From: Diplolepis rosae
Taxonomy: Eukaryota > Arthropoda > Insecta > Hymenoptera > Diplolepididae
Direction: 5' to 3'
Assembly (NCBI GenBank): GCA_030998225.1
Contig: JAPYXD010000045.1
Span: 1,178,001 to 1,242,000, forward strand
Length of the DNA stretch: 64,000 bases
In this document: one piece after another, positions 14,151 to 36,313 of the stretch
Numbering within the stretch: position 1 is the first letter of the stretch
How the letters are laid out: the number at the start of each line of letters is the position of its first letter
Notes under the pieces: model-generated
What the model saw: the letters and a program-made list of their open reading frames with translations, nothing else
Told to the model about the DNA's origin: nothing
Databases searched by the model: none
Made by a program: the position numbers and the translations under genes

Positions 14151-14168
14151 CCTCACCAAAAAAAAATA

Positions 14169-14726
14169 CCCTAGCGGACCCGTGTGAGAGAACGGTCATA
14201 GAATACTGTGACCGTTCTCTGACTGTTCTATGACCGTTCTATGACCTCGCATTATTACGGCTAAGAACGGTAAAAAATACATTAAAAGCTTTGCAATTAT
14301 GATTCTGTGTCGAAATTTGGATTAGAAGGTGAAGCAATAAATACAATTATCTTATTTTTCAGCGATAAAAACTAGAAAAACCTAATACCTGTCATTGAAG
14401 GCAGTGCAGTGGTTCACAATTGGCGGAACGTCTCCACCGTGAAGGTTTACTATTGGTGGAGACGTTCCGCAAATGGTGAACTACTGCACTGCCTTCAATG
14501 ACAGGTACATGATGTATTCCTAGTTTTTATCGCTGAAAAATTAGATGATTGTATTTATTGCTTCACCTTCTAATCCAAATTTCGCCACAGAATCATAATT
14601 GCAAAGCTTTTAATGTATTTTTTACCGTTCTTAGCCGTAATAATGCGAGGTCATAGAACGGTCATAGAACAGTCAGAGAACGGTCAGAGTATTCTATGAC
14701 CGTTCTCTGATACGGGTCCACTAGGG
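14169..14726. mobile_element. Palindromic MITE with TA target duplication
   Basis: A nearly perfect inverted repeat. The left end CCCTAGCGGACCCGTGTGAG mirrors the right end CTGATACGGGTCCACTAGGG. The arms (about 270 bp each) meet around 14435-14455 in a GTGGAGACGTTCCGC inverted pair. Dinucleotide TA flanks both ends (14167-14168 and 14727-14728), as in Tc1/mariner-related MITEs. Its original left 12 bp also stand at 9910-9921, separated by LINE copy B. The unoccupied locus would have had one TA between the sequence before 9908 and the sequence after 14728. No coding frame. Confidence 0.85.
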
Positions 14727-16060: not shown

Positions 16061-17385
16061 TGAGTCCTCTGGCGGAGCTTGTTTTTGCGGGATTTCTTCA
16101 GTTTCATTATCAGATTCTGAATTTGTAGCGCGTTGTTTTCCTAGCTTCTTTTTGATGCAGGTGAATGTCTTTTTCAGTGATGTGTCGACGTGTGGATATG
16201 TTTTTTCTATCATGTTAATTAGACCTAATATATCATTTGTGTATTCCAGAGAAAGACTTACAATAAGTACCAGGTCTAGAAGTATGAAACCGGAATTTTT
16301 TTGCAAAACTTACACGTCTGTTGCATGAAAATGATCAAAAATATTTTATTCAAAGTAATCTCCATTGCTATTTACACATTTTTTCCACCTCTCCGGAAGG
16401 TGTTGAATGCCACGCCAATAAAACTGTTCGTCTTTTAAATTAAACCAGTTATCCAGCCATTCTCGTACATTTTCGTACGAAGTGAAGCGTTGTTCAGCGA
16501 GAGCGTAGCCCAGTGATGCGAACAGATGGTAATCCAACGGAGCCAGGTCTGGAGAATAAGCGGCATGCACCAGTATTTCCCAACTGAAAGTCTCGATCGT
16601 TTCCTTGACCCGTTTCGCTGCATGTGATGGGACATTATCGTGAAGAAAAATGACTTTGTGTTGCCTTCTTCGATAATCCAGTCGTTTTTCTTGTAATGTT
16701 CGATTTAAATCGATAGTTTGCTGTTGGTAGCGATTCGTGTTGACAGTTTCACCAGGATTTAGCAGCTCATAATAGACAACACCCTTCTGATTCCACCAAA
16801 CGCACTTTTTCGGTGGTTTTCCACGATCTTCGTTTCTCACATCAAAATTACCACTATTGAATTTTATAAACCACTCGAAACACTGTGTTTTGCCAAGAGC
16901 ATGTTCACCGTAAGCTTCGACAAGCATTCGATACTATTCTGCAGCAGTTTTCTTCAAGTGCTAACAAAAAACCAATGCTGTCCGCAAATCGTAGTTCGTA
17001 GGCACAAAACTCGACATGTTGATGCTTGTAGTCGGAATGATAGTATGTGTGCGTGGTTGGGCTTAGAGAGACTTGCGCGAATTTCTGTGACGCTAGATAC
17101 CGGCTTCATATTTTTCTCTTTTAAAGTTTGTAGAATCCATGAATTTGTTATTACAGGGTTTATGTGAGAGTTTACGACTCTTTTGTTTTTTCTCATTAGT
17201 GGCCTGATTTTAAAAGCATACTGATTAACTTGTATAACTCTATTTGTGACTTTGTTAGCATTTTCCTCGCTATCAAAGAAGACACAGACACGCTTACCAT
17301 ATGTTTTTGATATATGTCTAATATGTACAGGATCTATGTTGTTTTCCAGTCCATCAATGTAGTCATCGTTGGTGCAATTATGCAC
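16055..17385 (-). pseudogene. LINE C, ORF1, interrupted by mariner B
   Basis: Two minus-strand coding pieces flank mariner B. The upstream piece (17385-16970) contains ITNSWILQTLKEKNMKPVSS and ends at a HILSFRLQ stretch. The downstream piece (16306-16055) ends with an acidic, Gln/Pro-rich tail before ORF2. The order fits the ORF1 protein of an RNase H-type or Jockey-like LINE, though I see no zinc knuckle. The start lies at or beyond 17385, where the AT-rich repeat beginning with CACTGAG abuts. Confidence 0.6.
16322..16965 (-). mobile_element. mariner copy B with internal deletion
   Basis: A minus-strand mariner inside LINE C ORF1. From 16927 a 193-residue frame reads from the N-terminal HTH region (EYGEHALGKTQCFEWF-like block) to RGKPPKK. 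It then jumps straight to CVWWNQKGVVYYELL, so the second HTH and the block with the first catalytic Asp are missing. Downstream HDNVPSHA (second Asp) and YSPDLAPLDYHLF (third Asp) are intact, and the frame is open to the natural end (SNGDYFE, about 16349). The 5' end and left ITR are absent. It is a defective copy, distinct from mariner A. Confidence 0.85.
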
Positions 17386-19608
17386 TGAGAAAAAAGAATA
17401 TTTGAATCAAAGAATATTTCTTTGATTCAAATAAATGGTTGAGCTGGATGGTGACGAATAAATATTTTTTTAGATCAAAGAAATATTTTTATTGTCTTTA
17501 AAAAATGAATAATTAAAGCAAAAAAATGTTTTTCTAGTACTATTAAATATTCATTAGAATGAATAAATATGTTATTAACATTGTGTAGCAATTATTTGAT
17601 AAGAGAAGTAAATTCTTTGATGTAAAATGATGTGATGCATGTTCAAAGAAACAATGGATTAATTCAAAAAAATTTGCATTGGTTCAAGTAAATTTGTTTT
17701 GCATTCCAATATATGATTCCTTGTTTGTAATGAGCGCATTGTAAATTGAGACAAATATTTCTTTGAAATGAGGAGATAATTTTTGGTTAGATTAAATAAT
17801 TATTTGCTCCGAAGATGTGATTTACTGTTTAAAATGGTCAAGCAGTAAAGTGTATTGAGTACTAATGGATGCAAAGAACGATAATATTGCCTATGTTTAG
17901 TTAGAGATTTGTGTCAAAAAGATGTTACTGATATGAATAAACGTGTTTTCAAATTTAAGAAATTTTCCTTAAATTTAAAGTAATATAAACTTCATGAATT
18001 GTAAGGAGTTAAATAAAATGTTGTCATGGTTCTCTTAAATAACAAAAAAATTCTTACCTCGAACCTGCCATTAGTCATCAGATACATACATGTATAAACA
18101 TCATACAATTACTTTCACACTATTCAGTCGCAGCTAATTATATTTTCTATTACAAATACACTTAAGTATACAACTTCGCAAATATAAACCTAATAACTAA
18201 AACTTATATATAGGACGATACGCTTTCGTCGAATCACGCACACGCTTGCTTACAATCCTGAGACATAAAACTTGGAACTTTCTTATATAGTGACTGCAAA
18301 AGTTATTCAGAGCTTGTGACAGTAAGTGTCGTGACTAGGGCTTTTGAGCCTCACTCAAGTAAAAATAAATCAACTCTTTTTATAAATTATTCATAAAATT
18401 TTTTTTTTATTCATTATAATTATGATTATTGATAAATATATAATATAATTATTAATTAATATTTAGCATACATTTTTATTATAACTATACGTATGAAGTT
18501 TAATGAAACTAAATTTTAAAATATATATTAATTAAAAGGAAATTCTTTTATTTTCTGTGTTGTATATTTTCAAAGTATAAATTATACAATTGTGAATTTC
18601 AAATTATTATTTTACCTAAGAAATTTATGTAAATTTTAAATATTTTGTAGATTTTTTAGATTTTATGTTATAAATTTATCAAGACTTTTGCTTTTTAAAT
18701 TTATGTAAAATCAATTTAATTTAAAAAAACCTAAGTGAAAAATAAAGAAGTAATTATAAATGAATTAAGTTTTAAATGATATATTTGATGTTGTGAATCA
18801 AAATGAATATTTCCTTTGAAGAGACTGATAAATCTTCAACCCTATGAAATATATTCCACATTTGAAAGTATGTATATGTATGTTTATATCAACTATGACA
18901 AACAGTTGAATAGAAAAAAATGTATACTATGGTGGGACGAATATTTGTTTGGAATGATACATTTCAAGTTGATAATGAGAGCGAATGTTTCTTAGAACGA
19001 GAATGATGAATTTTCAATTCTATGGAAAATATGTTTCAAGTTTAAGAAACATGTGATCATAACAACTATGCCAAACGTTTAAATGGAATAAACAAATTTT
19101 TCAAACGAAAAATACCACAGTTTTTACAAAAAAATACTTCATTCTTTTAAAAAAATGGTTTGTTTGGTCTAAATTATTCCATATTCATAATGAAGGCGAA
19201 TATTTCCTAGGAGGAATCCAATAAACATTTAATTATATGAAATATGTTTCATGTTTAAAAAATATGTTGTCATAACAAATATGGCAAACCTTTAAATTAA
19301 ATAAACAAATTTTTTAAACGAAAAATACCTGCAGTTTTTTCAAAAAGATATTTCTTTCTTTTAAAAAATTGGTTTTCTTGGTTTAAATTATTTTATATTG
19401 ATAATGTAGGCGGATATTTCCCAGGAGAAATCTAATAAAGATTTAATTCTACAAAATATGTTGCACGTTCAAAAAGATTGACAATTGTAACAATGATGCC
19501 AAACATTTATATAAAAGAAATTATTTATTTTAACTGAACGTACTTGCAGTCATTTCAACAAAATATCGTTTTCTTTGAAATAAATGTTCTTTTTTGAATG
19601 AATTCTTC
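17383..19608. repeat. AT-rich repeat element, left part (split by the LTR element)
   Basis: The region begins CACTGAGAAAAAAGAATATTTG at 17383. The inverse of a similar end (AAATATTTTTTTGAGTG) closes at 36313, beyond the LTR element. It has many short ATTTCTTTGATTCAA-type inverted motifs and no coding frame. The LTR element inserted at 19608/36014, with CTTC duplicated, so this part and 36014-36313 were once continuous. Family and target duplication are not clear. Confidence 0.45.
18805..19608. repeat. Tandem repeat, about 215-bp unit
   Basis: A recurring block (gaatatttcc ... aaatatgtttca ... caaattttt...aaacgaaaaatacc) starts near 18805, 18983, 19198 and 19413. The last spacings are 215 bp, and the first unit is shorter and more diverged. 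The array is cut by the LTR insertion at 19609 and appears to continue after 36014. Confidence 0.65.
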
Positions 19609-21344
19609 TGTCACGTATCCATGACAGTTATATTATATATTATAATCATATAAAATTATTATGCTATTATATCATATAACACGTTTTATTGTTGCTATAA
19701 ATATTGTTGCTAGATACATGTAACTGTTTTTATAAATAATTTCACTATTACTATTAACTAAAATATCAATAAACAATTGATTTTATTGATAAAATACTAA
19801 TTAAAACGAATATTACCTTTTATTATTATTAACTATTATTATTACTATTGTTAATAATAACAATTAACGAAATGCAACAAATGTTATATAACAACAATAT
19901 TATTTCAACCTTTATATTTAAAATTATTATTAATCACTATTATTATTAATATTTAATATTTTTATTAACATTAATTGTCAAAATGCAACAAATATTAAAT
20001 AATAACAATGTTACTTCAATTTCTTGATTTGCATAATTATCAATCACTTTCATTATAATTATTTCATATTGTTATTGAATTTGCAACAAATATTATAATA
20101 ATGTTACTTCAAATTTTATAATAATAATGTTTATAATAATTATCATTATTGTTAGTATTCTTATTTGATGTTAATCAACAATCAGCAATTAATTATAAAA
20201 TACGTTCTTTTAATAACTATTACTATTATGTTATTTTATAAACAAAAGCAATGTTTAAATATAAAGATTAATAGAATTATAAACAAATCATAATCACCAT
20301 CTATGTACAACAATTGTATTATAGTTACTCTATTACTTACCTATGTATACAAATAATGTCATTGACCCTTGCGACTAAATCTACCTAAAAACCTGATGGT
20401 ACGGGTTTACACAGCCCTTGAGAAGATGTGAGTACACCCAAACCACGAAAGCATGACCCACACGGACTTGGAAAATCGGTGTGAGTCCCTAAGCTCACCA
20501 ACGCAGCACACCAGCAAACTGGCCCATAGTCTCAACTCACCACACTGACACCTAAGATTCTAATGGACTTCGAAAAAGCTAACTATTACAAAATCAAATT
20601 CCCATACTTTCTACCTCCGAGTTGAGACTATAGACGACAATATAAGCCAGGCTGCAAGGCCTAAACACAAGTCTAAGCGCGTCGGAGTCTGAGTCGAAGC
20701 GAGTCTAAGGGAGCGTACAATCAAGCAGCATCGCTAGAACCGGTTTTCGTCGCCGTACCGCAATAAATCTAAGTGGCCGTAATTTCCACGTGTTCGGGAA
20801 AACCAATATAATAACAACAGAGTGAATTTAAATAAAACTGGATTTAGTGTCATTGTAATCAAGGAATCAAAATAAGGATACCTGTTAAACTAAGGATTGA
20901 CCTGCCACTGTTGGTGAACAAAGATAATTAGGGGAGGTACCCGATTAGCAGAGGATACACAGAGCTTAAAGGATTATCGCTTTCAAGAGGCCACCTCATC
21001 AATAACAACCGGTAAGTCAAATAACTTGTTTTTATTAAAGTTCTCTTTTCTTCTGAGCCCTTTAGACTCACGGCGTGTTTTTCTTTCGGGTTGGACCAAT
21101 CAGACTCGACCAACCAAAGGAAAACAGCCTGCAACCAACAACTAAAAAGTCGCTTGGGTTAAAATAAATTTTGTATTTTTATAATAAATTATTATTAACA
21201 ATAATTGTAATTTGATTCATTTGGCTTGTCCTCTACCCGGTTAATTGTTAATTTTAACAATAAACAGAGGAACATAGTTAGGGTAATCTGCTCTAGACTT
21301 TAGGTAGGAAATATTTATATTAATTTAAAACTTAGGACGTCACA
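19609..21344 (+). repeat. 5' LTR
   Basis: 1736-bp LTR, TG...CA. The first kilobase is very AT-rich with ATT-type simple sequence; the 3' third is less so. A TATAAG at 20641 lies upstream of a GC-richer stretch, giving a plausible transcription start near 20670. Several AATAAA motifs follow (about 20762, 20831 and 21260) and could serve as polyadenylation signals. It contains 44 bp (around 19680-19722, between TAAC repeats) missing from the 3' LTR. Confidence 0.9.
21012..21017 (+). promoter_or_regulatory. Consensus splice donor in the LTR leader
   Basis: The sequence CCG|GTAAGT is a near-ideal donor, located downstream of the presumed start of transcription. It is repeated in the 3' LTR at 35691-35696. 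It could feed all the acceptors found before the downstream genes. Confidence 0.5.
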
Positions 21345-21357
21345 GAGCTAATTATTC

Positions 21358-21371
21358 TGGTGCATCGGCCG
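21358..21371 (+). promoter_or_regulatory. Primer binding site, tRNA-Gly type
   Basis: TGGTGCATCGGCCG lies 13 nt after the 5' LTR. It is complementary to the conserved 3' end of eukaryotic tRNA-Gly (CCGATGC acceptor strand plus ACCA). Confidence 0.75.
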
Positions 21372-22311
21372 TTGGCAAACATCAAGCCTTTTGAATTTTA
21401 TGCAAATTTTTTTTTTGAATAGTCTTCATATTTTTTACAAAAATCTCCTGAAATTTCTTTAAAATAATTTCAGTTTGAGTTAAATTTTTCTGATAATTAA
21501 AATTATTTTTCTCAATAACCATTGAACAAGTCTACAAGTTGGTAGCAGTTTTAATTTTCTTAAAAAATTGAATACAAGAAAATCAAATATATTTTATTTT
21601 GCAACTTTAAATAAATAAATTATACATAAAAATATTATCAAAAATTATTATAATAATCATTCAAATTCAAATTCAAATTTCCTGTATTCAAGTTTTTACT
21701 ATCATAATATAATTTTAATAGGTGCCTCTATAAAATAATTTTTGTTAAACAAAAACAGTGCGTACGAGATTTAATTCAATATTGAGAAATATTTTGCCTC
21801 CGCATTTGAGAATTATAAGCTATTCTGTTTTATTTAAACTATGCCTAAAATTATATTTTAATTGATTTTTCTTCATTTTCGAAAAATTTTAAAAAACAAA
21901 TTTCATATTTTATAATTTCAAAATATTGCGCAGCTAAAATATTTTTATTATGATAAAAAATATAATAATAATAAAATATAAACAATTTTTCACCGTATAA
22001 AATATAAGATTTGGATTGTTTAAGGGAGGTTAAAACATTCTTTTACACAAATTTGATGCTCTAGATACATATATCATAAATTTTTATACAATTTTACACA
22101 AATTTTATAAAATTCATAAAAATTAAATTTCTGTTGTTTCTTCTTTGAATGTTTATTCTTATTTATTAAATTATTTAATTAAAATTCGTCAAATATACAA
22201 AAAAATTATATACATTTTATCTAAAATTTTTTTTTTTAATAAAAAATCGTTAAACCTAAAACCATTAAATTCAAAAAATTATATTTTTCATCGTCATGAT
22301 CTTGAATCCAA
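21372..22311. other. Untranslated leader, no gene seen
   Basis: Strongly AT-rich leader of about 940 bp between primer site and gag. No supported frame. It presumably carries packaging signals, which I cannot identify. Confidence 0.5.
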
Positions 22312-24080
22312 ATGTCTGTGGAAAATAAGAAAGATAATTTAACAACAATAAGTATTACTCGTAGTCAGGCTAAAAACAATCCAAAACTTGCTGAAATTAT
22401 AGAAGACAATAGGAAAAAAGCTTTTGAAATTAAGAAAAAAACAGCTGAAAACCAAGATTCGCAAAACCCAAATACTCCTTCAAATACTAGTGCCTCTACG
22501 TCCCAAAAATTAGAGTTATCAGGAAATACTAATCAAGATACTAGTATAATAATTAGTTCTAGTATACCTCCAAAAGACCGATCAGCTTTAACAGATTCAA
22601 TATTATTCGATAAAAGTATTTTTGATACATCAAATTTAACCGGAAATTCTACTATAGTCGACAAATTTGACCGCACTTTGATCCCAACAAATACTTCAAA
22701 TTATAAAGAACAATTACATTTATCTGAATCCTCAGAAGACTCAGACCGTGAATTAAATTACAAATTTCCAGAAAAATTAGCAGAAGATCCCGAAAAATCA
22801 ATTTCTAACGATCCACAATTATTAGAACCTCTAATTAAACAATAGAAAGAAGAATATTCGCCTATTTCAAATAAAATGACTACCAATAACCCACAAATTA
22901 TAACTGTTGCTCATAATCAAGTAGTATCATTACGAGATGCATTAGAAGTTGTACCAATATTTACAGGAGATAATATATCTCTGGATCAATTTATAGAAGG
23001 ATGTAGAGAAGCAAAAGATATGCTTCCTGCAGGGACAGAATCAAACTTAACTAAATCAAAACAAAGGACAAAGGAGAAGCAAGAAAATGCGTCAGTGGAG
23101 GACAATACAGAAGTGTAGAAGATATTATAGATAGTCTTAAACGCGTTTATTCATTGAATAAATCAGTATATCAATTACAAGGTGAATTAGGTAACATTTA
23201 TCAATGGGATAGTGAGAAAGTAATTTCCTATGCAACTCGTGTTAGGGAACTTGGAGAAAAAATATTAGATGCCCATAAAGCAAATAATAATGATAGAATA
23301 GACGCAAATTTTCAAGCAGCCCTTGACAGCGATATTCGGGATTGTTTTTTAAGAGGATTAAAAACCGAAATTGAATCCAGATTACAAGGTGTACATAATT
23401 TTAAAGATACGGTAAACAACGCTCTAGAGATAGAAAGAAAAATCTCAGCAACTGCAGCACTACGATCCGCACGTACACCATATAGGCAAAAAGAAGATAA
23501 TTTAATAGGACCATCAGAAAAACGAGACAGAAATAGGATAAATATAACTCAGGAAGAAATTTTTTGTCAAATTTGTGGAAGAAGAGGACATACAGCTCCC
23601 ACCTGTAGACAATGGAACCAAATAACCTCAAACTGACAAGGATATTCAAACAATTATGGAAGAAAATTGCAGCCTATAAGAAATCCTCTATATAATAAAA
23701 ATTTTTACGACAGGAATAACCAACGGCAACCTTTTAACAGAGGTCCACAACCGAACGTGAGTCAATGGACCCCCCGCCAAAAAGATATAGGTCAATGGCG
23801 ACCTCAATCATCTGCACCAAACCCAAGTTTATGGCAACAGCAAACAACTAGCAATTTGAATAGAAATAGAGAATTTCAAAATGCTTCAGCGAATTATCCA
23901 AAAATAAATAATAATAAAAATTGTAATTACTGTAAAATAGGTCATACAATTGATGAATGTCGGCGTCGAGCATACAACGAATCGCTTAAACAGCAACAAC
24001 AACCTAAAAGAGCTGAAAAACAGAACCAGGGAAACTCCAGACCCCTCCCCGATCAGGGTGCAATCAGGGAGGCTATTTAA
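22312..24080 (+). pseudogene. gag: gag (LTR element), broken
   Basis: The ATG at 22312 opens a hydrophilic, Ser/Asn-rich N-terminal region that ends at an in-frame TAG (22843-22845). A capsid-like region begins after it (MTTNNPQ at 22876, then VPIFTGDNISLDQFIEGC). It shifts frame at about 23050-23110 and continues with SVYQLQGELGNIYQ and a CFLRGLKTEIE block. Two CCHC knuckles follow: CQICGRRGHTAPTC near 23580 and CNYCKIGHTIDEC near 23925, separated by an in-frame TGA at 23634-23636. The layout is that of a Ty3/Gypsy Gag, which coats genomic RNA and forms the particle. Pol follows in another frame, as expected for frameshift expression. Confidence 0.85.
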
Positions 24081-24163
24081 AACATTTTACAGCACCCACT
24101 TCAAATCAGAATATTATAAATACAAAAATAAATGTACACTCAGACAACCCAATTCCTTCTATT

Positions 24164-25971
24164 ATGGTATCTGCTGATGGTCTAAAAAACCCAGCACGTA
24201 TGATGATAGACACAGGAGCAGGACGAAATTTAATAAAACTAAATATAATTGATCACAACGTGGAAATAAATCAAGATGAAATTTTACGCCTTACAGGTAT
24301 AAATAGTGTACCAGTTTATACATTGGGTCAGATAACTCTCAATATTTTTGGATATCCCACAATTTTTAACTTAATTCCAAATAGTGTACCAGTAGAAGAA
24401 GATGGGGTACTAGGATCCGAATTTTTCACTGACAATGACGTCAATATAAATTATATATCAAAATGTTTAGAAATACAAAATAATAAATATCCATTTCGAA
24501 ATCCGGAGACCATAATTTTGCCAGCAAGATCAATTTCAACTCTTTGTATCCGAATTTCAAATACAAATCAAAAAGAAGGATTTATACCTTTACTTAATTT
24601 GAAAAAAGGAATATATGCAGGAAATGCTATTGTCAAAAATCATGGTGGAAAAGCCTATATAAAAGTAGCAAACATACTTTCTATACCTATAGAAATAGAA
24701 ACTCCTATAGTTATGCTAGAAGATTTTGAAGAAATCACAATGAGTAGTACTTTAGTTAAATCAACTACAAATCAAATTAACACTTTTACGAACAAGAATC
24801 ATAACAAATCCCCTGAAGAATTAATAGACAAATTTATAAATTCTAGTGACACAGAACAAATAATATCTCAATTTTATAAAATCACAGGAGAAAATAGAAT
24901 TAAAATAATCAAAGAATTACTTCGTTTAGATCACTTGAATCAAGAAGAGTTCGATCATGTAACAAAATTAATTATTAAACATTCAGATAGATTCCAAATA
25001 CCAGATGAACCTTTAGAACCAACTAATGCTGCTATGCATTCAATTCCTACAGTAGATGAACGACCAATTTTCTCAAAACAATATAGATTTCCACCAGCAC
25101 ACAAAGAAGAAATCACTAAACAAGTTAATGAACTTCTAAAAACTAAAATAATTAAGCCTTCTCAATCACCGTATAATACACCAGTATTTATTGTACCTAA
25201 AAAACTAGATTCACATGGTCAAAGAAAGTGGAGAATGGTTTTAGATTTCAGGAAATTAAATGACAAAACGATCGGAGACTCCTATCCATTACCAAACATA
25301 ATAGACATTTTAGATCAATTAGGAAACGCACGATATTTTTCAGTCTTTGATTTAGCCACTGGATTCCATCATATCCCCATGGATCCTAAAGATTCACATA
25401 AAACAGCTTTTTCAACTCCATTTGGACACTACGAATTTGATAGAATGCCCTTTGGATTAAAAAATGCGCCAGCGACATTCCAAAGACTTATGGATATAGT
25501 ATTAACGGGATTACAAGGAACCGAACTTTTTGTTTATTTAGATGATATTTTTCCATATGCAGATACATTAGAAGAACATGAAGCAAAATTTGATGAACTT
25601 ATGAATCGACTTAGAAAAAGTAACTTACATTTACAACCTGATAAATGTGAATTCCTCAGACCTGAGGTAGCTTATTAAGGACACATTATAGACAAAAACG
25701 GAGTTAGACCCGACCCTAAAAAAATAAAATCTGTACAAGAATTTCCAAGACCAAAAAATGAGAAGAATATTAAACAATTTTTAGGTTTAGCCGGTTATTA
25801 CAGAAGATTTATTGAACATTTCTCTAAAATTGCGAGTCCCTTGACAGAACTTTTAAAACAGGATACACCTTTTGTTTGGACTGAAAAACAACAAGTAGCT
25901 TTTGATATATTAAAACAAAAGTAGTACATATTAATCGACTAAAACGTGCTCGATTAAATAAAGCAGACTAA
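24164..25971 (+). pseudogene. pol: pol (LTR element): protease and RT, RNase H/integrase mostly deleted
   Basis: The protease active site DTGA lies near 24209. The RT core runs from about 25050, with FDLATGFHHIPM near 25350 and catalytic YLDD at 25535-25546. A TAA at 25676-25678 interrupts the frame. The same frame then continues through the RT thumb and connection (QFLGLAGYYRRFIEHF) into the first residues of RNase H at about 25920. There it joins, out of frame, to a VVHINRLKRA tail that normally ends integrase, with a stop at 25969-25971. About 2 kb that should encode the RNase H and integrase catalytic domains is absent. This copy cannot complete reverse transcription or integrate unaided. 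The RT motifs are Ty3/Gypsy, near the errantivirus-type lineage. Confidence 0.9.
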
Positions 25972-26002
25972 ATTGGAAACTACTTTCAGATATCGTTCCT
26001 CA

Positions 26003-26284
26003 ATGGATCCCATCCATCGAAAAAGAATAGATAAATATTGCGATCTTCTTGTCAACAACATAGATATAGTAACAATTTGGCCTTTCCTAATAAGAAATAA
26101 AATCTTTAACCGAGATGATCATAATATTCCACTATGGCTTTATGATATAACAAATCCATCAACTATAGAAGACATAATACTCGCAATAAAAACTCGTGGT
26201 CCACTTGCATACCACAATTTTATACTAAGTTTACGACAATCTGGACAAGGATTATTAGCAGAAATTTTGGATCTCATTGAATAA
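26003..26284 (+). CDS. CARD-domain protein (accessory ORF of the LTR element)
   Basis: The frame is open from 25973. The first ATG is 26003, giving 93 residues that are almost entirely one caspase recruitment domain. Features I recognise: an N-terminal HRKRIDKY helix, a hydrophobic LLVNNIDIVTIWPFLI helix pair, and the near-diagnostic TRGPLAYHNFILSLRQSG segment followed by LLAEILDL. In cells, CARDs pair with other CARDs in apoptosome and inflammasome-like complexes; in insects the initiator caspase Dronc and the adaptor Dark carry them. A CARD alone, with no enzymatic domain, could act as a decoy or nucleator; this is inference. It sits between pol and env1, and a possible acceptor (CTACTTTCAG) ends at 25989. 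The frame is intact. The domain assignment rests on pattern recognition only. Confidence 0.75.
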   Translation: MDPIHRKRIDKYCDLLVNNIDIVTIWPFLIRNKIFNRDDHNIPLWLYDITNPSTIEDIILAIKTRGPLAYHNFILSLRQSGQGLLAEILDLIE

Positions 26285-26402
26285 GTATTGAAAAAGTATT
26301 TATTATACCCAATACAAATAAGAATAACAAATCAGTGAACAAATAAATTTTATTTCTGAAAATGAATAAAAATTTGTTAACTAGAAAAATCCTTTTCTAG
26401 AC

Positions 26403-28415
26403 ATGGGGTCCGGAAAGAAAAAACTGACAACCTTAGTCATGCTGATATTAATGACAACAACTGTAGAAGCAATCATCGGATACGACTGTGGATCCAATCA
26501 ACTTAATTTAACAACACTGTCTCTTCTTGAGGTGGGAGAATGTGATATACCTGAACCTGAATTACACTTAGAAACAACTTACATTCAACTTTTACAAATA
26601 AGTGATTTCACACTCACCCAAGTAAGACAATGCAAGATCGAAATTAGACGTACTATATCTTACTGTGGAATGCATTCACATATTTCAGCAGTAACTAATG
26701 GACAAAGTGAATATATACATGAAATTTCGCACCAACAATGTGATACACTACACTCATCAGGTACAATATCCCTGGGCCAAAACCTACAAATCTCAAATTT
26801 AAAAATTAATCAAACATCTTATCACAGCGTACTACTAGCCGGATCTTTGGCTATGAATGGAGATTGCTCTGGAACTCAATATTCAGATCCTTTTGGAACG
26901 TGGAATAACGTAATCGTTCAAGGCATATTAAAAATCACACTTCAAGAATACTATGCTAACGTGAATTTAAATACAGATAAAATACACTTACGGTCAGGAA
27001 TAACATGTTCGCTTTCAGAATCCTATTGTGTCGACATGGAAGGAGGACAAACTTTTTGGAATCCTCTGCCTGATGACATTTGCAATTTTAATAAATATGA
27101 AATATTTTATGAAGGTTACGCAAATAAAACTCAAGATAATGAAACACAAAGCCCAAACATATTATATTCACTTACAACTCAAGACATAACTTTCGTTTTA
27201 ACACAAAAAGCAAAAAATCCAGTCTGTAATCTTTTAATGATTAGAACTGAACATCCAAAATTATTAATACTTGAAATCACACCAGGATCCTCAACGCTTC
27301 TAAACAAGAAACCACTTGTCCAAAATATGGATTTATTTACATACATCAATTCAAAATTTGTATATATTGAACGACACATTCGTAATGAAGTGAACAAACT
27401 ATATCATCATGTTTTAACTTAAAAATGTAAATTAGAGCAACAAGTTTTTAAAAATACCTTAATTTTAGCTACTCAAGCTCCTGATGAATTTGCTTATCAT
27501 TTAATGAAAGGTCCAGGTTACATGTCAATAATTGCAGGAGAAGTTGTGCATATAATTAAATGCATCCCAATTAAGGTTAAATATCGCAAAACAGAAGAAT
27601 GTTATCTACACCTACCAATCTATAGAGGAAATCAGACTTCTTTTATTACACCAAGAACTCACATCTTAACTAACAAAGGCACTCAAACAAGTTGTAACTC
27701 TTTTGTTCCAATTATGTATTTTTTGGGAAATGCTTGGTATAAATTAATTCCAAATCCAATCGAATCTTTACCCCCAGAAATAATGAAACCTTTGACAAAA
27801 CCCACATGGCGATATACAAATCCGGCTCATCTTGCAACAAGCGGAATATATTCTCAATCGGATTTAAACAAACTGCGCGATCACATAATGTTTCCCGCGG
27901 AAAAACCGATGGTTCTCAACACATTAGCTCGCGGAATCATGGTTCAATCCACTCTAAATCAAGGAATCTCGTTAATGAATCTTTTAGATGAGGAAACTAT
28001 TGAAAAAATTGCTCACTCAACTTGGACAAAAATATGGACAGTATTCTCGAATTTTGGCACAGTTAGCGCAGGATTTATAGGAGTAATCATTATCATAAGG
28101 GGCATTAAAATAATAATTGATACCATAATTCACGGTTATGCACTTTACACTGTTTTTGGCTGGTAATTTCACTTAATATGAGCTATTTGGGACTCCGTAA
28201 CTAACCTTCTATTACATTTAGGTAGAGAAAACCAAAGGACACAGGACCAACAACAAGAACCACTTGATACGAATCCTTCAGCACCCGATATATCTACACA
28301 TTTACTTGAAGAAAACATTAAAACAGGTAAACAAAAGAAAAACGAAACCACCAGCCTATATCCACACAGTGAACTAACAGAACTATATAATATACCTCAA
28401 ACTTTTCTCTTTTAA
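26403..28415 (+). pseudogene. env: env1, chuvirus-type glycoprotein, interrupted by stops
   Basis: An acceptor (CCTTTTCTAG) ends at 26400 and the ATG is 26403. A signal peptide (TLVMLILMTTTVEA) is followed by a Cys-rich ectodomain opening IIGYDC, with CGMHSH near 26665 and several NxT/S sites. The frame stops at 27420-27422 and reads on in the same frame from 27423. It reaches a transmembrane segment (GFIGVIIIIRGIKIII, near 28070) and stops at 28164-28166 and 28179-28181. A same-frame tail follows with an LYP motif, ending at 28415. The Cys pattern is what I associate with glycoproteins of chuviruses and the insect retroelements that captured them, thought to be class III fusogens. It is broken by three nonsense codons in this copy. 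Confidence 0.7.
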
Positions 28416-28448
28416 AAAAGTAATCAGCATGAACTACTCTTATAAATT

Positions 28449-29122
28449 AAAAAAAGGATAAGAAAAATGGATTACTTTTTGAAATCACTGCAGAGTATAA
28501 AAAACAAGAAGTAACTGGGCTGGGATATGATCCTGAACTAACAAAGCAGCATGTTACAGAAACATTATTGAAAATGATACCAGAAATAGAAGCCCAAGTC
28601 TCCAATTCCTATCAATCCTTCCAGTTAAATGCCTTTAAAGAATTACAAAATACTTGTAAAAAATTCCGAATCTCAAAACCACAAATGTTAACTTTCCGTA
28701 TCAAATATTCAAATACATCCTCAACCTATATGAGCATTTGTACAACTGATCAAATGAAAGAAAGTGGAATTGGTAGCACACCAAAACAAGCAAAAGACCA
28801 GGCAGCTTGTAAACTCATTCATTCTATACTTAAGAAAATAGAAACAGAAAGAGCTAGTAATCTTCAAAATGACTTTCAAAATTTGACTGTAAATTTAGAA
28901 TCCAATTCTTTAAAAACCAATCCACTTTCACAATCAAACAAAAATGGACGTTCTAATATAAAACAAATAAATAATCTGCCCTTCAAAAAAAGAATTAGAT
29001 ATAACTTACCAATCCACCCAATTCCTCAACCTTCAACCTCATACAACCAATCACCTACAAATTCCTATAAAAAGTGCATGAAATGTGGGTTTAGACCATC
29101 AAATCCTTATTACAATTGTTAG
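28449..29122 (+). CDS. dsRNA-binding-domain protein 1 (accessory ORF)
   Basis: The frame is open from about 28449. The first in-frame ATG is 28574, but an ATG at 28429 joins it only across a probable frameshift in the A-rich stretch 28450-28467, so the N-terminus is uncertain. A canonical double-stranded RNA-binding domain follows. Helix 1 is FKELQNTCKKFRI, the three-strand region is LTFRIKYSN...MSICTT, and helix 2 is GIGSTPKQAKDQAACKLI, which carries the KQAK-type dsRNA contact loop. The C-terminus is basic and Asn-rich and ends with a CMKCGF...YNC cysteine pair. dsRBDs bind duplex RNA without sequence preference and occur in RNAi cofactors and in several viral RNAi suppressors. It lies between the two env genes. 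Confidence 0.7.
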
Positions 29123-29247
29123 ACGATAAGCATGAATCTCTTACGCACGCAACTTTTATTTTAGTTTTAATTTTTAATAGCATGGTATATGTGTGTAATT
29201 ATGACTACTAATCTAATTCTTTACTTTTGTTTAGTTAATCTCTCTGC

Positions 29248-30969
29248 ATGCTGTCACCAATAAAAATGATGGTAAAAAGACCCTTTTATTCTAGGAACTC
29301 GAGAAGCGACATGTTGAGGATTTGTACTCTCATCATAATCATCAAATTAAATCCTATACAATCTTATGAAGCTGACAATTTCATTATAACTTCTATCTCA
29401 AACGCTTCTAGTATTTATTACGAGCCATTAGACAATATAACTTTTACCTCTGGCAGCTGGCATCTTCTTTCTTATATCAATATATTAAGCTTTTTGAATT
29501 TTGGATACGAAATACTTGACACTTTCAAAGAACTGACTGTCCATTGTCAAAATAACTGCATTCTCAACGAAATAACAGCACAAATAATAATTAAAGAAAG
29601 AAAAATAAAATCAGTTTTAAACGAAATTTGTTTAATTCTAGAAAATACTGTCGACATCACATTGAAAGATGATTTTCAAAATTTTAAAACAGCACTTATC
29701 AAAATGCAAAAGTCGGATAATTCTACCTTTGACTGGTACGAAAAACAGATTTATATTTTTCCTTCTATTCTAACAGATACTTGTAAAAAAATCATCCATG
29801 CCCAAAACACAATTGCTAGATTTAAAAACTGGCATCTAAAGTTTCCAAATTCAACAGATTCCTTGTACGAAATGTTCGAAGTATCATGGATAACTAACAT
29901 CAGACGCTACACACCATTATATTCTCAGTATACAACAGCTATCAACTAATTTAGCTTTTGCAATTAATGGTAATTGGCATCCTACTCTACTGTCTTTAAT
30001 CCCTTTCAATTCAATCAAGAATCTAGCATCCAAAAGTTCTCCATACCAAACTGCAAACGACCTCACTCTTTCTGAACTTCTAATATTTGCTAAAGTCCAA
30101 CTTTTCTTTTATGAGAAGAAATTAGTTATCTCACTCTCTCTTCCATTTATATCAGAAAAAAATATCAAATATTCAAACCCTATTCAATCCCTATTTATCA
30201 CACATTTAATTCAGACTTGACTACATCCATTTTTATCAAATCTAAAATTTCCTATTTGGCACTTTCAAATGACAAACAAACTTATTTTACCTTCGACGAT
30301 TATCTCTATGATACCTGTCATTCAACACAAATTGGAAAAATTTGTACTTTCACTCCCCCTGAATGGAGCACATTAAACAACCAAATTTGTGAAACAGCAC
30401 TCCTTACAGAAAATAAACTATATCAGTGCCAATTCTATCTAAAAATAACTAATAACATCCAATGGACTCCACTTAAATTTTATCAAGGATGGTTATACTC
30501 CACTCCTTTTCCTACAAAAATTCGAATCCATTGTCCACAAAAAATTTCCACTCAGATTACTGTCAATAACGCTGGTATTTTACAAACACAATCCGATTGC
30601 ATCATTGAAGCAAATAATTTAGTCTTGCCACAGATTAACACAAAATAAAAATCTCTTCTAAAAATTACCCCCACTACAGGCTATTCAACTTCACTACATA
30701 AAATTGCCCCTAATCTTTACAACTTATCATTAAACTCAAATCCACTACTCAAAAATTTATTCAGTTCTTGGAATAATAATGAAATTATTTCACTATCTAC
30801 CCTTGAACAACAATTATTTACATTTCTTCAGTTTCAAAAGTCTTATAATAAAAGAACAGAAATCAGCAAGCGCTTTGAAACATTATCTTTTTACATTTTT
30901 ATAGTAACAATTGTATTGTTAACTGTCACATTCACTTTTTCCTTCGTCTTCTTCTTCTCCTCATGGTAA
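29248..30969 (+). pseudogene. env: env2, errantivirus/baculovirus F-type glycoprotein, broken
   Basis: A pyrimidine-rich acceptor (TTACTTTTGTTTAG) ends at 29234 and the ATG is 29248. A hydrophobic signal (ICTLIIII) precedes an ectodomain with a GSWHLLSYINIL block and a C...NNC pair. The reading leaves this frame at about 29940. It continues one frame over (NGNWHPTLLSLIPF near 29970, VISLSLPFI near 30135) and returns to the first frame by about 30217. An in-frame TAA stands at 30646-30648. The end has a long hydrophobic membrane anchor (YIFIVTIVLLTVTFTF, about 30890-30940) and stops at 30969. The HP..L and SL.LPF blocks are typical of insect errantivirus Env proteins. No clear furin site. It is unrelated to env1 in its Cys pattern. 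Confidence 0.6.
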
Positions 30970-31047
30970 AAACTATAAACAAATAATAAAAATTCAAAAA
31001 CAAATTCATAAATGAATCAATTTCTATTTTCGATTATATTTACCTGT

Positions 31048-32051
31048 TCAAGTACAGAATTTACGACTAAATCGCATTCTGTCAACCTTAACTATCACTT
31101 CCATTCCACCTTCGTCCAATTGTTTTTTAACCTCAGCTGCTCTACGGTAACGCCAAGAACGGTCAAAACCAGCCCACAGCCAAGGCAATTGAACACGTAT
31201 ACCATTGTTCAAAACCAAAAATTTAGGCGACAATAAAACTCGTTTGTCATCATTGTCATACCTAACGCGATCACTATCAACCTGCAATAAACAATTCAAA
31301 TATATTCTTTCATCTATTGTTATAAAAAAAAAATTAAAAATTAATAAAAATATATATATATAAAAATGCTTACCAGCACAAGAAGACGCTCTTCATTAAA
31401 ATGACAAAACCTTTCACTTATTTTAAATACACCAGACGGTTGCGAATGGTACTCAGAAATTACTTGAGCTCTTAACATTTCCTGTTGTGCCAAAGGAAAA
31501 TCAGCCCACCATCCGGGACCATGATGGTTTACACCTTCAACAATCCTTATTTTAAAAATGTTGAAATGTGTCACTTCCTTCCATATATCATGAGACCATT
31601 GTCTCAACTCATATCGAGGCATTTGATTCACATCCTCAAATGAATCGCGTATATTCTCTGTCTGAACAACAGAGTCTTCAATTGGAGAAACAACTTCATT
31701 ATCCTTAGCATTTCTATTTTCACTAATAGATTCATCAACATCCATATGCACAGCACTTACACTTTCTTCAACACTTTTCTCTTGTCCTTCATTCAGATTA
31801 AAAAGTATTGACTCATCAAGAGTCTCGCCGTCTTTTTCCGACTCCCCAAAGAACGTTCGATCTAAATCAACCCAAAAGTCACTATCTACACACACTTCAC
31901 TATTTTCCCCGCTTTCGCAAAACCTCAAACTAGACTCTGGAACCTCAAAATCAATCAAAGAATCAAAATTAAAATCATCCGACGATAAAAACTCGTTTCC
32001 GAAAAATTCCGAAAACTCATTTGCAACATTTTCCTTCTGAAACGATTCCAT
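31048..32051 (-). CDS. Antisense two-exon gene inside the LTR element
   Basis: On the minus strand an ATG at 32051 opens exon 1, coding to 31374 (226 codons). A donor GTAAGC begins at 31373. A 92-nt AT-rich intron ends with TTTATTGCAG at 31282, and exon 2 runs 31281-31048 in phase 0 (77 codons and stop). No stop or frameshift interrupts either exon. Roughly the first 140 residues are acidic and Ser/Asp/Glu-rich. The rest, spanning the splice junction, looks globular with many Trp, Arg and hydrophobic residues (HHGPGWWADFPLAQ; LPWLWAGFDRSWRYRR). I do not recognise a family. An acidic head plus a folded basic part would suit a transcription regulator, but that is speculation. It lies opposite to every other gene in the element. 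Confidence 0.6.
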
Positions 32052-32392
32052 GTTTTACTCAAAGGATCTAAACTTCGACTAACACTCTTCTCACTCTCAA
32101 AGTTAACCCTTTCGAGCTTCATTTCTCCAAAACTTTCCCTATTTTTACTTCTAATACATAAAAACACACAAACCTCTTGACTTAAACCCTTCTAAAATTT
32201 TGTCAAAAAAAAACGACAACCTTAGAAACTCCAATTATCACACTGTGAATAACTTTCAAAAAGAGGATGCCTCCCAACCAACGCCATAAATCCTAGAAGC
32301 AGTAAAATCATAAATCAGTAAACTTTTTTCACTCAGACTAGTAACTTGCCTATAACCAAAAATTTTCTCTCTTTCTATCATTTTTTAGAATC

Positions 32393-32782
32393 ATGAAACC
32401 TCTTCAAGAAATACCTGAAAACGAGAAATCTTTCGACGGTATTTGCTTAGAACATCACCCAGAAACTTATGACATACTATTCATCACCAAATGTTTCAAA
32501 TTAGACGAAAATACACCATTGATCTATGTAAAATCAACTCACTCGGCAATGCGTATTTGTGAATATTGTTACCTCAAATTGTCAGATTATGAAAAAGAAA
32601 GCTATGAACGTCGAAGCACTTGGCATTCAATCGGACAAATACGCCGATTTAATACAGTCTGTTTCTTTTGTAACATCAAAATAATATCCATTTGCTGTAC
32701 AGCCTTTCAATGTACTCAATGCATCGATAAGTTCCTAGACAATCAGAATCTCATACAAAGTGGAATAGAAATTGAAATTTGA
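32393..32782 (+). CDS. Cys-rich small protein A (accessory ORF)
   Basis: An acceptor (TTCTATCATTTTTTAG) ends at 32388 and the ATG follows at 32393. The 129-residue product has an N-terminal Cys/His patch (ICLEHH), then CEYC near residue 56, CFFC near residue 90 and a CCTAFQCTQC cluster near residue 100. The spacing suggests two or more zinc sites of ribbon or RING-like type. No signal peptide or membrane segment is seen. It is paralogous to protein B just downstream: both share a CxxCY..L block with acidic follow-up and paired CxxC motifs. The function is unknown to me. The frame is intact. Confidence 0.6.
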   Translation: MKPLQEIPENEKSFDGICLEHHPETYDILFITKCFKLDENTPLIYVKSTHSAMRICEYCYLKLSDYEKESYERRSTWHSIGQIRRFNTVCFFCNIKIISICCTAFQCTQCIDKFLDNQNLIQSGIEIEI

Positions 32783-32982
32783 CACTATTTAAAATCTTAG
32801 TACGCATGTATAGCAAAAGGGAAATAGGGAAAATTATTTGTCATATGTATCACGCATGAATCCAAATAATAAATAATTCGCAGATGATTTTCCTTATTAA
32901 TGGCATGACTATTGAAAGCATACTTTGGTATGCCCAAAATATTAAAAATAAAACAATTTTTTTTATATCTCCTCGCAGGAAA

Positions 32983-33462
32983 ATGCTGCCAACTGAGACG
33001 ACTGCTCCCAAAATTGCACGAAAAAACAAAACAAATCTATTGAACTATTATTCTACATTCTTACATAGTTTATACATGAATTATTTTTGTTGCATTAAAA
33101 TACATGCAGATGAACAAGTATTATTCAATCCAATACTAGGAAGACCGTTATGCGTTGACTGCTATTTTTTAATAACTGACGACGAACGCGATAATATTTG
33201 TGAACTTACGGACAGATGTACGCCATTCAGCAATTTATCAGATACCAATTGTCATGCTTGCGACAAACCAGTATATTTTTTTAGACAAAGAGCAGATAAT
33301 TGCGAGAATTGTAGAGCTTTTATTGATTTCAAACTAAGTGTAGAAGATCCAAATTCACATGTAGTACAGCAGTCGTTTATAGAATCCGATTCAGAATCGG
33401 ATTCGGAACCTAATGAGGTCGATTATGATTCTGAAGCTTCAACAATAATCTTCGAAAATTGA
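32983..33462 (+). CDS. Cys-rich small protein B (accessory ORF)
   Basis: The frame is open from 32884, but a good acceptor (TTTTTATATCTCCTCGCAG) ends at 32978, so the ATG at 32983 is the likelier start (159 residues). Cys pairs stand at FCCIKIHADE, CVDCYFLITDDERD, NCHACDK and NCENC, matching those of protein A in order. The C-terminus is strongly acidic (ESDSESDSEPNE). The pair looks like a tandem duplication within the element. Zinc binding is inferred from the Cys pairs; the role is unknown. The frame is intact. Confidence 0.6.
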   Translation: MLPTETTAPKIARKNKTNLLNYYSTFLHSLYMNYFCCIKIHADEQVLFNPILGRPLCVDCYFLITDDERDNICELTDRCTPFSNLSDTNCHACDKPVYFFRQRADNCENCRAFIDFKLSVEDPNSHVVQQSFIESDSESDSEPNEVDYDSEASTIIFEN

Positions 33463-33673
33463 TAATGAAAAATAATAAATTTAACATTCAAACAAAATCA
33501 TGCCACCCTTTTATAATTTTAATACTACTATAATAACGATAAATGTAAGTTTTCACTACGAGATTTTATGTTAAGAACAACTCATACTCCATAGAAAGAT
33601 ATTCTATTCTTAATCAATTAGCAACTTTTGGTCTTTCTCTATAAAATGTATTCTCTGTATGTTTCAGAAAAAA

Positions 33674-34063
33674 ATGGAAGTTCCATTTAGAACAATAAAT
33701 GCAGCCACAGTCGCTAGCCCTATGCAATTGATTAATGAATTAAGCGTAGAATACGATTTTACACCTCCAAAATACGAAATAACATCTTTCAATTTATTTA
33801 ATATTCCGACTTTCATCGCAAAATGTACGTTGACTAAAGATTGTTCTAAATATACATGTAGCAGTGACGAAGCTCCAAATATCAAACAGGCAAAACACGC
33901 TGCAGCCAGAAAATTATTAGAATTGTTAAACGAAAATTATGTCTTTAGCGAACAAAACGGTTCAGGAATCAAAACAAACAGTTTTGGAAATCGTAAAGTG
34001 TTATATAAATGGACTGGGGCTTGCGAGAAGTGCTATCAAAAAGGTCACTTGATTTATACGTGA
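33674..34063 (+). CDS. dsRNA-binding-domain protein 2 (accessory ORF)
   Basis: An acceptor (TTCTCTGTATGTTTCAG) ends at 33667, making ATG 33674 the likely start; an ATG at 33659 lies upstream of the acceptor. The 129-residue product is essentially one dsRBD. Helix 1 is SPMQLINELSVEY, then the DFTPPKYEI strand and FIAKCTL, and helix 2 is NIKQAKHAAARKLLELL with the KQAKHAAA contact motif. The helix 1 and TPPKYEI style resembles the dsRBDs of RNAi cofactors such as the Loquacious/R2D2 type. A CEKCYQKGH cysteine motif closes the protein, echoing the C-terminus of dsRBD protein 1, so the two may be paralogues. The frame is intact. Binding of duplex RNA is expected; RNAi suppression is inference. 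Confidence 0.75.
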   Translation: MEVPFRTINAATVASPMQLINELSVEYDFTPPKYEITSFNLFNIPTFIAKCTLTKDCSKYTCSSDEAPNIKQAKHAAARKLLELLNENYVFSEQNGSGIKTNSFGNRKVLYKWTGACEKCYQKGHLIYT

Positions 34064-34307
34064 AAAGGACCCACGAGAAACAAAAACCTGCGACTTAATT
34101 AAAATATTATATATTTCCATTATTATATAAATTATGACTGCATACATATGAACCTTTTATAAGTAATATTTCGATAGGAATCATATGCGAGACACCTCTT
34201 ATCCTATAACAATATTTTTTCAGAGAAATAATGAACTCATTTTAATTTTTCCTCTACCGAGGATTCGATCGCTACAGTTCTATTCTATCACCTCCACGAT
34301 CGAATTT
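34064..34307. other. Short 3' untranslated region of the LTR element
   Basis: AT-rich spacer between the last ORF and the polypurine tract, with a short inverted ATTCGATCG/CGATCGAAT motif (34263-34305). No gene. Confidence 0.5.
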
Positions 34308-34318
34308 AGGGGGGGAGG
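34308..34318 (+). promoter_or_regulatory. Polypurine tract
   Basis: AGGGGGGGAGG stands directly before the TG of the 3' LTR, where plus-strand DNA synthesis would be primed. Confidence 0.8.
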
Positions 34319-36013
34319 TGTCACGTATCCATGACAGTTATATTATATATTATAATCATATAAAATTATTATGCTATTATATCATATAACTGTTTTTATA
34401 AATAATTTCACTATTACTATTAACTAAAATATCAATAAACAATTGATTTTATTGATAAAATACTAATTAAAACGAATATTACCTTTTATTATTATTAACT
34501 ATTATTATTACTATTGTTAATAATAACAGTTAACGAAATGCAACAAATGTTATATAACAACAATATTATTTCAACCTTTATATTTAAAATTATTATTAAT
34601 CACTATTATTATTAATTTTTAATATTTTTATTAACATTAATTGTCAAAATGCAACAAATATTAAATAATAACAATGTTACTTCAATTTCTTGATTTGCAT
34701 AATTATCAATCACTTTCATTATAATTATTTCATATTGTTATTGAATTTGCAACAAATATTATAATAATGTTACTTCAAATTTTATAATAATAATGTTTAT
34801 AATAATTATCATTATTGTTAGTATTCTTATTTGATGTTAATCAACAATCAGCAATTAATTATAAAATACGTTCTTTTAATAACTATTACTATTATGTTAT
34901 TTTATAAACAAAAGCAATGTTTAAATATAAAGATTAATAGAATTATAAACAAATCATAATCACCATCTATGTACAACAATTGTATTATAGTTACTCTATT
35001 ATTTACCTATGTATACAAATAATGTCATTGACCCTTGCGACTAAATCTACCTAAAAACCTGATGGTACGGGTTTACACAGCCCTTGAGAAGATGTGAGTA
35101 CACCCAAACCGCGAAAGCATGACCCACACGGACTTGGAAAATCGGTGTGAGTCCCTAAGCTCACCAACGCAGCACACCAGCAAACTGGCCCATAGTCTCA
35201 ACTCACCACACTGACACCTAAGATTCTAATGGACTTCGAAAAAGCTATTGAAACCATGGAACTCAAATTCCCATACTTTCTACCTACGAGTTGAGACTAC
35301 AGACGACAATATAAGCCAGGCTGCAAGGCCTAAACACAAGTCTAAGCGCGTCGGAGTCTGAGTCGAAGCGAGTTTAAGGGAGCGTACAATCAAGCAGCAT
35401 CGCTAGAACCGGTTTTCGTCGCCGTACCGCAATAAATATAAGTGGCCGTAATTTCCTCGTGTTCGGGAAAACCAATATAATAACAACAGAGTGAATTTAA
35501 ATAAAACTGGATTTAGTGTCATTGTAATCAAGGCATCAAAATAAGGATACCTGTTAAACTAAGGATTGACCTGCCACTGTTGGTGAACAAAGATAATTAG
35601 GGGAGGTACCCGATTAGCAGAGGATACACAGAGCTTAAAGGATTATCGCTTTCAAGAGGCCACCTCATCAATAACAACCGGTAAGTCAAATAACTTGTTT
35701 TTATTAAAGTTCTCTTTTCTTCTGAGCCCTTTAGACTCACGGCGTGTTTTTCTTTAGGGTTGGACCAATCAGACTCGACCAACCAAAGGAAAACAGCCTG
35801 CAACCAACAACTAAAAAGTCGCTTGGGTTAAAATAAATTTTGTATTTTTATAATAAATTATTATTAACAATAATTGTAATTTGATTCATTTGGCTTGTCC
35901 TCTACCCGGTTAATTGTTAATTTTAACAATAAACAGAGGAACATAGTTAGGGAAATTGGCTCTAGACTTTAGGTAGGAAATATTTATATTAATTTAAAAC
36001 TTAGGACGTCACA
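34319..36013 (+). repeat. 3' LTR
   Basis: 1695 bp, collinear with the 5' LTR. It lacks the 44 bp noted there and has a 3-bp net gain in a rearranged patch near 35247-35272 (compare 20578-20598). Otherwise it has about 14 scattered substitutions by eye. It is followed by CTTC, the target duplication. Confidence 0.9.
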
Positions 36014-36313
36014 CTTCCATTCTACTGTTCATAAAAAACATTTCTTTCAACTAAAGAAATAAATATTTATGTAAACACAATATTTTATTCATATAAAGAA
36101 ACGTTACATTGATATACTATACATGTATCAACTCTTCGGATCGAATAAATATCTTCCTAAATTAATTAATGAATGCCTCAATTAAATTAATATTTCCTTG
36201 ATTCAACTAAACATAAAGCTTTATTTATCCTTGGATAAATTATTTGATTCAAATGCGTCTTGTTGAATTCAAAAAATGGGACTTAATGAATTAAATAAAT
36301 ATTTTTTTGAGTG
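36014..36313. repeat. AT-rich repeat element, right part
   Basis: Continuation of the repeat interrupted at 19608. It has the same ATTTCTTT/AAAGAAAT style, ending TTTTTTTGAGTG at 36313, the imperfect inverse of the left end at 17383. No coding frame. Confidence 0.4.

Follow-up and report, generated by a model that had tools for sequence, protein, structure and literature searches.

Related elements

Insect endogenous retroviruses have been described by three components, gag, pol and an F-type envelope gene (env-F; PMC12992720, cited from an excerpt like all publications below). Here, a unit bounded by long terminal repeats (LTRs) at positions 19609-36013 of a 64-kb stretch of contig JAPYXD010000045.1 (64,000 nt, hereafter the window) was analyzed, and with a probability of roughly 0.7 we consider it the decayed provirus of an undescribed, large and complex lineage within Ty3/Gypsy (Metaviridae), an insect being the most likely host. 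With the errantiviruses, it shares a reverse transcriptase (RT) of the Ty3/Gypsy type and an F-type envelope gene downstream of pol (PMC12992720), the latter recognized in one piece of a broken gene. However, errantiviruses are described as having three open reading frames (ORFs), whereas this element extends over 16.4 kb and contains two envelope genes and at least five further ORFs, which differs from the set of gag, pol and a single env within 7-9 kb (a size range given in a preliminary description of this DNA). Additional differences are the LTRs of 1.7 kb, a tRNA-Gly primer-binding site located 13 nt inside, and the added genes, namely those for a CARD protein, a chuvirus-type glycoprotein, proteins with double-stranded RNA-binding domains (dsRBDs) and Cys-rich proteins, as well as an antisense gene.

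A chuvirus-type fusion glycoprotein between LTRs is also found in Anakin, a group of mosquito BEL/Pao elements with a chuvirus glycoprotein as env (PMC7642597). For a capture of such glycoproteins by Gypsy elements, the excerpt of another study states that there is no clear evidence, and it reports Gypsy fragments beside them, notably in Hymenoptera (PMC10084718). Since gypsy elements that carry fusion glycoproteins of type III are mentioned elsewhere (PMC13172572), the pairing of Gypsy with a glycoprotein of this kind is not new. Membership in BEL/Pao was considered for the present element because of its glycoprotein, but Anakin has a BEL/Pao pol and the Ty3-type RT rules this assignment out.

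The complex retrovirus HTLV-1 carries an antisense spliced gene, HBZ, and the element is similar in that its pol is followed by accessory genes, one of which, probably spliced, lies on the opposite strand towards the 3' LTR; its RT is of the Ty3 type, and the likeness rests on layout, not on sequence. In the plant Ty3/Gypsy group Retand, pol and the 3' LTR are far apart, and the region separating them contains antisense ORFs, for which a role in regulation was suggested (PMC11963269). Here too, the likeness is one of layout and not of sequence: Retand lives in plant hosts, has TRP28 in most antisense ORFs and is excerpted as being without an envelope, whereas TRP28 (Pfam) was detected neither in the present antisense ORF nor in its relatives, and two envelope genes are present. 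Single CARDs of about 90 aa occur in iridoviruses, where the 91-aa protein of a grouper iridovirus inhibits apoptosis (PMC4457926), but these are large DNA viruses, and the CARD of this retroelement is modeled nearest to those of caspase-9 and Apaf-1. Troyka was ruled out by its CG..CG ends, 3-bp duplications and, according to the excerpt, missing envelope (PMC12440569), and other unusual LTR groups considered beside it were rejected.

Among the full-text literature matches listed, which were judged by title and the start of the abstract and which left most subscription journals outside the scope, none concerned a retroelement that encodes a CARD or combines these genes. The proposal of an undescribed lineage, made in the preliminary description, stands with regards to these matches, while its accounts of pol and of the first envelope gene had to be corrected. 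That the element is a new, unusually complex Ty3/Gypsy variant combining all these genes is partly supported.

Boundaries of the element

The LTR-bounded unit is 16,405 nt long, and the coordinates proposed for it earlier on the basis of its LTRs, a 4-bp duplication, a primer site and a purine tract proved exact to the base. Alignment of the 5' LTR (19609-21344, 1736 nt; plus strand, as for all features of the element unless stated otherwise) with the 3' LTR (34319-36013, 1695 nt, also recovered by the repeat search) gave 1671 identical columns out of 1692 (98.8%), in addition to one 44-nt and one 3-nt gap. Both LTRs start with TG and finish with CA, and the target-site duplication CTTC was read directly on the left (19605-19608) and on the right (36014-36017). 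A primer-binding site of 14 nt (21358-21371) begins 13 nt past the 5' LTR and is the complement of what we take to be the 3' end of tRNA-Gly, and the polypurine tract AGGGGGGGAGG (34308-34318) adjoins the 3' LTR directly. The stretch from 19609 to 36013 is a retrotransposed unit, and its LTRs with TG..CA ends, primer site, purine tract and short target duplication are those of Metaviridae. LTR elements usually show TG..CA ends and a duplication of 4 to 6 bp (PMC12440569).

The 44-nt gap in the LTR alignment falls in an AT-rich stretch at 19677-19720, which is present in the 5' LTR only. Further on, both LTRs contain 111-nt repeats.

The gag and pol genes and their decay

The gag region (22849-24080), located by reading its frames and by a CCHC knuckle (Pfam 0.0068, below the cut-off), is disrupted by a shift of frame near 23050 and, further on, by an in-frame stop at 23634-23636. 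It is preceded by a 179-codon open frame (22306-22845) with no family match above the cut-off, which may be the N-terminus of gag or a separate ORF. The pol frame (24017-25678) overlaps the gag frame, contains a protease-like motif recognized by eye and a Ty3-type RT (Pfam RVT_1 9e-34), and is closed by an in-frame stop at 25676-25678. The RT was compared with solved structures, and among the best 60 of the 205 PDB sequences matched, the closest were 4ol8 (Reverse transcriptase/ribonuclease H, 1.5e-46), which we take to be Ty3, and the Ty3-G Gag-Pol polyprotein 7q5b (7.4e-46). Weaker matches comprised the 'Enzymatic polyprotein' 8r0s, presumably of a caulimovirus (4.6e-36), Pr125Pol and Peptidase A9/RT entries, which we assume to be of the foamy type (approximately 1e-22), and the HIV-1 RT (2.6e-15). 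This ranking supports an RT of the Ty3/Gypsy type that is nearer to Ty3 than to retroviruses or other groups, in agreement with the earlier assignment.

After the stop, only a pol remnant follows (25679-25968), in which the RT tail reaches an apparent RNase H start, recognized by eye, and then runs straight into a 21-residue C-terminal piece of the integrase (positions 24-35 of 35 in PF22938, Integrase_p58_C; E 0.0028, 18.2 bits, below the cut-off of 27). Along the order of protease, RT, RNase H and integrase, we thus observed the protease-like motif and the RT, followed by this integrase tail, while RNase H and nearly all of the integrase are missing. Both edges of the gap lie within pol, the CARD ORF comes after the remaining integrase end, and the loss is most simply one internal deletion in pol.

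A gap confined to pol would also be expected of a non-autonomous, satellite-like family, whose copies without RNase H and integrase would use the enzymes of a related full element and whose real cargo would be the accessory block. The matching target duplications imply that an integrase acted on this copy or on an undeleted parent, and one of 63 Retand clusters is reported to be without RH and INT (PMC11963269). We nevertheless regard a satellite family as unlikely: no other copy was shown to have the same deletion, and the loss is just as well explained by a deletion after insertion, in keeping with the other damage.

Reading of the frames yielded seven small disablements, a number that includes neither the large pol gap nor the stop separating gag from the 179-codon ORF. 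All seven lie in gag, pol and the two envelope genes env1 and env2 (together 6588 nt), and none was counted in the accessory frames (3138 nt). With regards to the LTR divergence, approximately two stops (if 5% of substitutions create stops) and four indels are expected in the 6.6-kb structural part, and approximately three events in the accessory part. The former expectation is near the seven disablements counted, so that decay since the insertion can account for most of the small damage. The distribution of the damage might also suggest that the host retains the CARD, antisense, Cys-rich and dsRBD genes for its own use while the structural genes decayed. However, the chance that all seven disablements fall into the longer, structural part is 0.065 and thus not significant, the first dsRBD frame is perhaps itself broken at its front, and plain decay at the expected rates suffices, which makes such a retention very improbable. 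Because RNase H and most of the integrase are lost and gag, pol and both envelope genes are broken, this copy is dead. The preliminary description had recognized the LTR anatomy and the ORFs, but overlooked the incomplete pol and the damage to the four structural genes.

Two envelope genes

The first envelope gene, env1 (26385-28166), matched the chuvirus-type (Monjiviricetes) fusion glycoprotein family PF24664 with 2.2e-122 and 1.3e-106 and is interrupted once, by an in-frame stop at 27420-27422. The second, env2 (29239-30969), is of the baculovirus-F/errantivirus type according to a Baculo_F match (Pfam, 5.2e-10) on the piece 30115-30645, and it is damaged by frame shifts between 29894 and 30220 and by a stop at 30646-30648. 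A search of solved structures with one piece of each gene returned no match. Judged by their Pfam families, env1 and env2 are unrelated fusogen types. Two env genes are present as described before, but env1 encodes a chuvirus-type glycoprotein and is no errantivirus env.

Ant genomes were found to contain 253 Mono-Chu endogenous viral elements, 89.7% of which are glycoprotein sequences (PMC6540820). If the element at 19609-36013 does represent a complex lineage, this would help to explain why ant genomes are filled with chuvirus-like glycoproteins and contain few other chuvirus genes, and elements of this kind could be a source of these glycoproteins.

Accessory genes

The first gene after pol encodes an intact stand-alone CARD protein of 93 aa (26003-26284), which was recognized by a Pfam match below the cut-off and by its predicted fold. 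All 93 residues of the model align to CARDs, and the top viral fold match, though at an E-value of 0.56, was the CARD of lymphocystis disease virus 3, likewise of 93 aa. According to the model, the fold spans the whole protein, as in viral stand-alone CARDs. Relatives of the protein were found at identities down to 59%.

Out of the two dsRBD ORFs proposed earlier, dsRBD2 (33659-34063) is the firmer one, with a Pfam dsrm match above the cut-off (2.5e-5, 25.2 bits versus 23) and Loquacious as its nearest solved relative (PDB 0.0016). The other, dsRBD1 (28451-29122), is a probable dsRBD protein with a weak dsrm match and a KQAKDQAA stretch, for which the search of solved structures gave no PDB match. 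The two match each other over 12 residues only, and a kinship is not claimed.

The antisense gene (31048-32051, minus strand) consists of exon 1 (32051-31374) and exon 2 (31281-31048), separated by a predicted intron of 92 nt (31282-31373, minus strand; GTAAGC...TTTATTGCAG) that is in phase 0 on both sides. The N-terminal half of the deduced protein is acidic, and its conserved part is W-rich. Four relatives were found, with 99, 55, 47 and 89% identity over 100, 97, 91 and 16% of the query, respectively, while a comparison with solved structures yielded nothing convincing (best E 0.85). The ORFs of the antisense gene are real as described, and the gene is probably spliced, as the in-phase intron prediction would have it.

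Both Cys-rich ORFs of the preliminary description are present and have relatives. The first (Cys1, 32393-32782, 129 aa) matches the front of the relative P0003 with 64% identity across 98 aa, and for the second (Cys2, 32983-33462, 159 aa) seven relatives were found, which cover 54-87% of the query at identities of 99-41%; among solved structures, nothing convincing was found for Cys2 (best E 0.078). Their cysteine spacing is alike, but BLASTP gave no meaningful match between them, and a kinship is not claimed. NCBIfam contained no meaningful match for the CARD protein, the antisense relative P0009, Cys2 or dsRBD2.

The coding nature of these frames was assessed by two kinds of shuffling. When nine ORFs were tested against 1000 first-order shuffles, seven, including the first antisense ORF, were matched by none, whereas 2 shuffles matched the CARD ORF and 11 the second antisense ORF. 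Codon periodicity was calculated for 11 rows, leaving out pol, and was reached by at most one of 1000 base shuffles for gag, CARD, both env1 pieces, antisense exon 1 (0) and Cys2. Weaker values were obtained for env2 (12 shuffles), dsRBD1 (23), dsRBD2 (50) and Cys1 (67).

Integrity of the accessory block

The presence of two envelope genes of unrelated types and of a gene in opposite orientation may look like a patchwork, and only one full copy is at hand. The element could accordingly be an ordinary gag-pol-env element that received its accessory block by later nested insertions or recombination at this locus. Nested insertions with termini of their own, which had been named beforehand as the observation that would speak for this, were not seen in the accessory block by the repeat search: a second LTR pair is absent, and exact 14-nt inverted repeats did not occur in 25951-34318 apart from two-letter words. 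With regards to repeats of at least 40 nt, the interior of the element has no direct repeats other than LTR pieces and a single inverted pair (45 nt, 80%) between 31323 and the 3' LTR, which is AT-rich and extends into that LTR. In addition, one repeat family pairs the flank with the interior of the element at 72%.

The strand bias of the block is like that of the remaining interior, though not in every segment. Of 16 interior segments, 15 have a positive AT skew (flanks, -0.03 and 0.00) and 14 a negative GC skew, the exceptions to the latter being gag (+0.02) and dsRBD2 (0.00), with flanks of 0.07 and 0.00. This shared bias and the missing internal repeat termini favor the view, based on composition and repeats, that the block has long been carried along with the element. 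Furthermore, the search for relatives of the accessory proteins that had been suggested earlier was successful, since relatives of the CARD, antisense and Cys2 proteins were found with identities as low as 59, 47 and 41%, respectively. A patchwork that arose at this locus is therefore improbable.

At the level of protein families, the element is more than a one-off; as a whole it is known from one defective copy. None of 11 element pieces matched the rest of the window, no relatives were confirmed among IMG/VR viral contigs (where entries from the genome under study may be lacking), and the LTR start had no match among prokaryote contigs.

Proposed life cycle and assessment

The ancestor of the present copy would have had a length of at least 16.4 kb and carried gag and pol, followed by the CARD gene, two unrelated fusion envelopes, probably two dsRNA-binding proteins, two Cys-rich proteins and the antisense gene. 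Its gag and pol products would have formed particles that reverse-transcribed and integrated, and the two fusogens would have provided cell entry, perhaps into different cell types. The CARD protein may have acted as a decoy in the apoptosome of Apaf-1/Dark and caspase-9/Dronc, delaying cell death; this is the simplest reading, because an iridovirus CARD of similar size blocks apoptosis and the nearest folds are those of both apoptosome partners. The dsRBD proteins might bind dsRNA and blunt RNA interference, with the Loquacious-like dsRBD possibly competing within the pathway, and the antisense protein, with its acidic front and its position on the opposite strand, could regulate transcription from the LTRs. 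The present copy would be unable to perform these functions alone.

Several points weigh against a complex lineage of this kind. Only one whole copy is known, the relatives are single proteins without genomic context, and a working full ancestor has to be assumed, since RNase H and integrase are missing. In the relatives, the only accessory genes found next to each other are Cys1 and Cys2, which are fused there as one protein (P0003). The Pfam match of the CARD protein (3.6e-4, 20.9 bits) is under the cut-off of 23.9, and its model reached no E-value below 0.001 (best 7.5e-3 in PDB and 0.56 among viral models). Likewise, the dsrm match of dsRBD1 (0.013, 16.5 bits) is below the cut-off, and there is no start codon close to the front of its open frame. 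The antisense and Cys-rich proteins had no family match above its cut-off, and the structure model of the antisense protein was too poor for use (pLDDT 34.9). The intron of the antisense gene is a prediction only, the relative P0011 has an open frame straight across the intron stretch, and the codon periodicity of exon 2 was matched by 116 of 1000 shuffles and is not significant.

Beyond the decayed provirus itself, we lean towards a living or recently living insect Ty3/Gypsy lineage that independently came to have vertebrate-like accessory genes, a spliced antisense regulator and two unrelated fusogens, and in which the CARD would be directed against apoptosis and the dsRBD proteins against RNA interference, with an envelope pair that is switchable or cell-type-specific. 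A two-fusogen element with a caspase-9-like CARD and probable dsRNA binders would suggest that an arms race around apoptosis and RNA interference yields complex retroviruses outside the vertebrates as well. Moreover, the element offers concrete proteins for testing in standard insect cell lines.

Surroundings of the element

Rfam gave no match and ARAGORN no tRNA across the 64-kb window. Close to the 5' flank, a 214-nt unit is repeated 2.1 times at 19026-19475 and ends approximately 130 nt before the 5' LTR, and a Mariner/Mos1-like transposase frame (Transposase_1 1.7e-14) is located at 16346-16933 on the minus strand. Further upstream, a GC-rich island at 10818-14233 (53-56% in 2-kb windows, compared with approximately 26-45% around it) contains an RT frame at 12927-13841 (RVT_1 2.2e-27), which is probably of the non-LTR type. 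A non-LTR-retrotransposon-type endonuclease domain (Exo_endo_phos_2 1.4e-18) was found at 560-1486 on the minus strand. On the other side of the element, a transposase frame at 45174-46052 matched a Psq helix-turn-helix and DDE_1 and is presumably pogo/Tigger-like. Finally, a 179-codon frame at 43065-43601 on the minus strand showed weak matches to bacterial helix-turn-helix families (HTH_36 7.6e-4, CggR_N 9e-4; below the cut-off), which is odd for such a genome.

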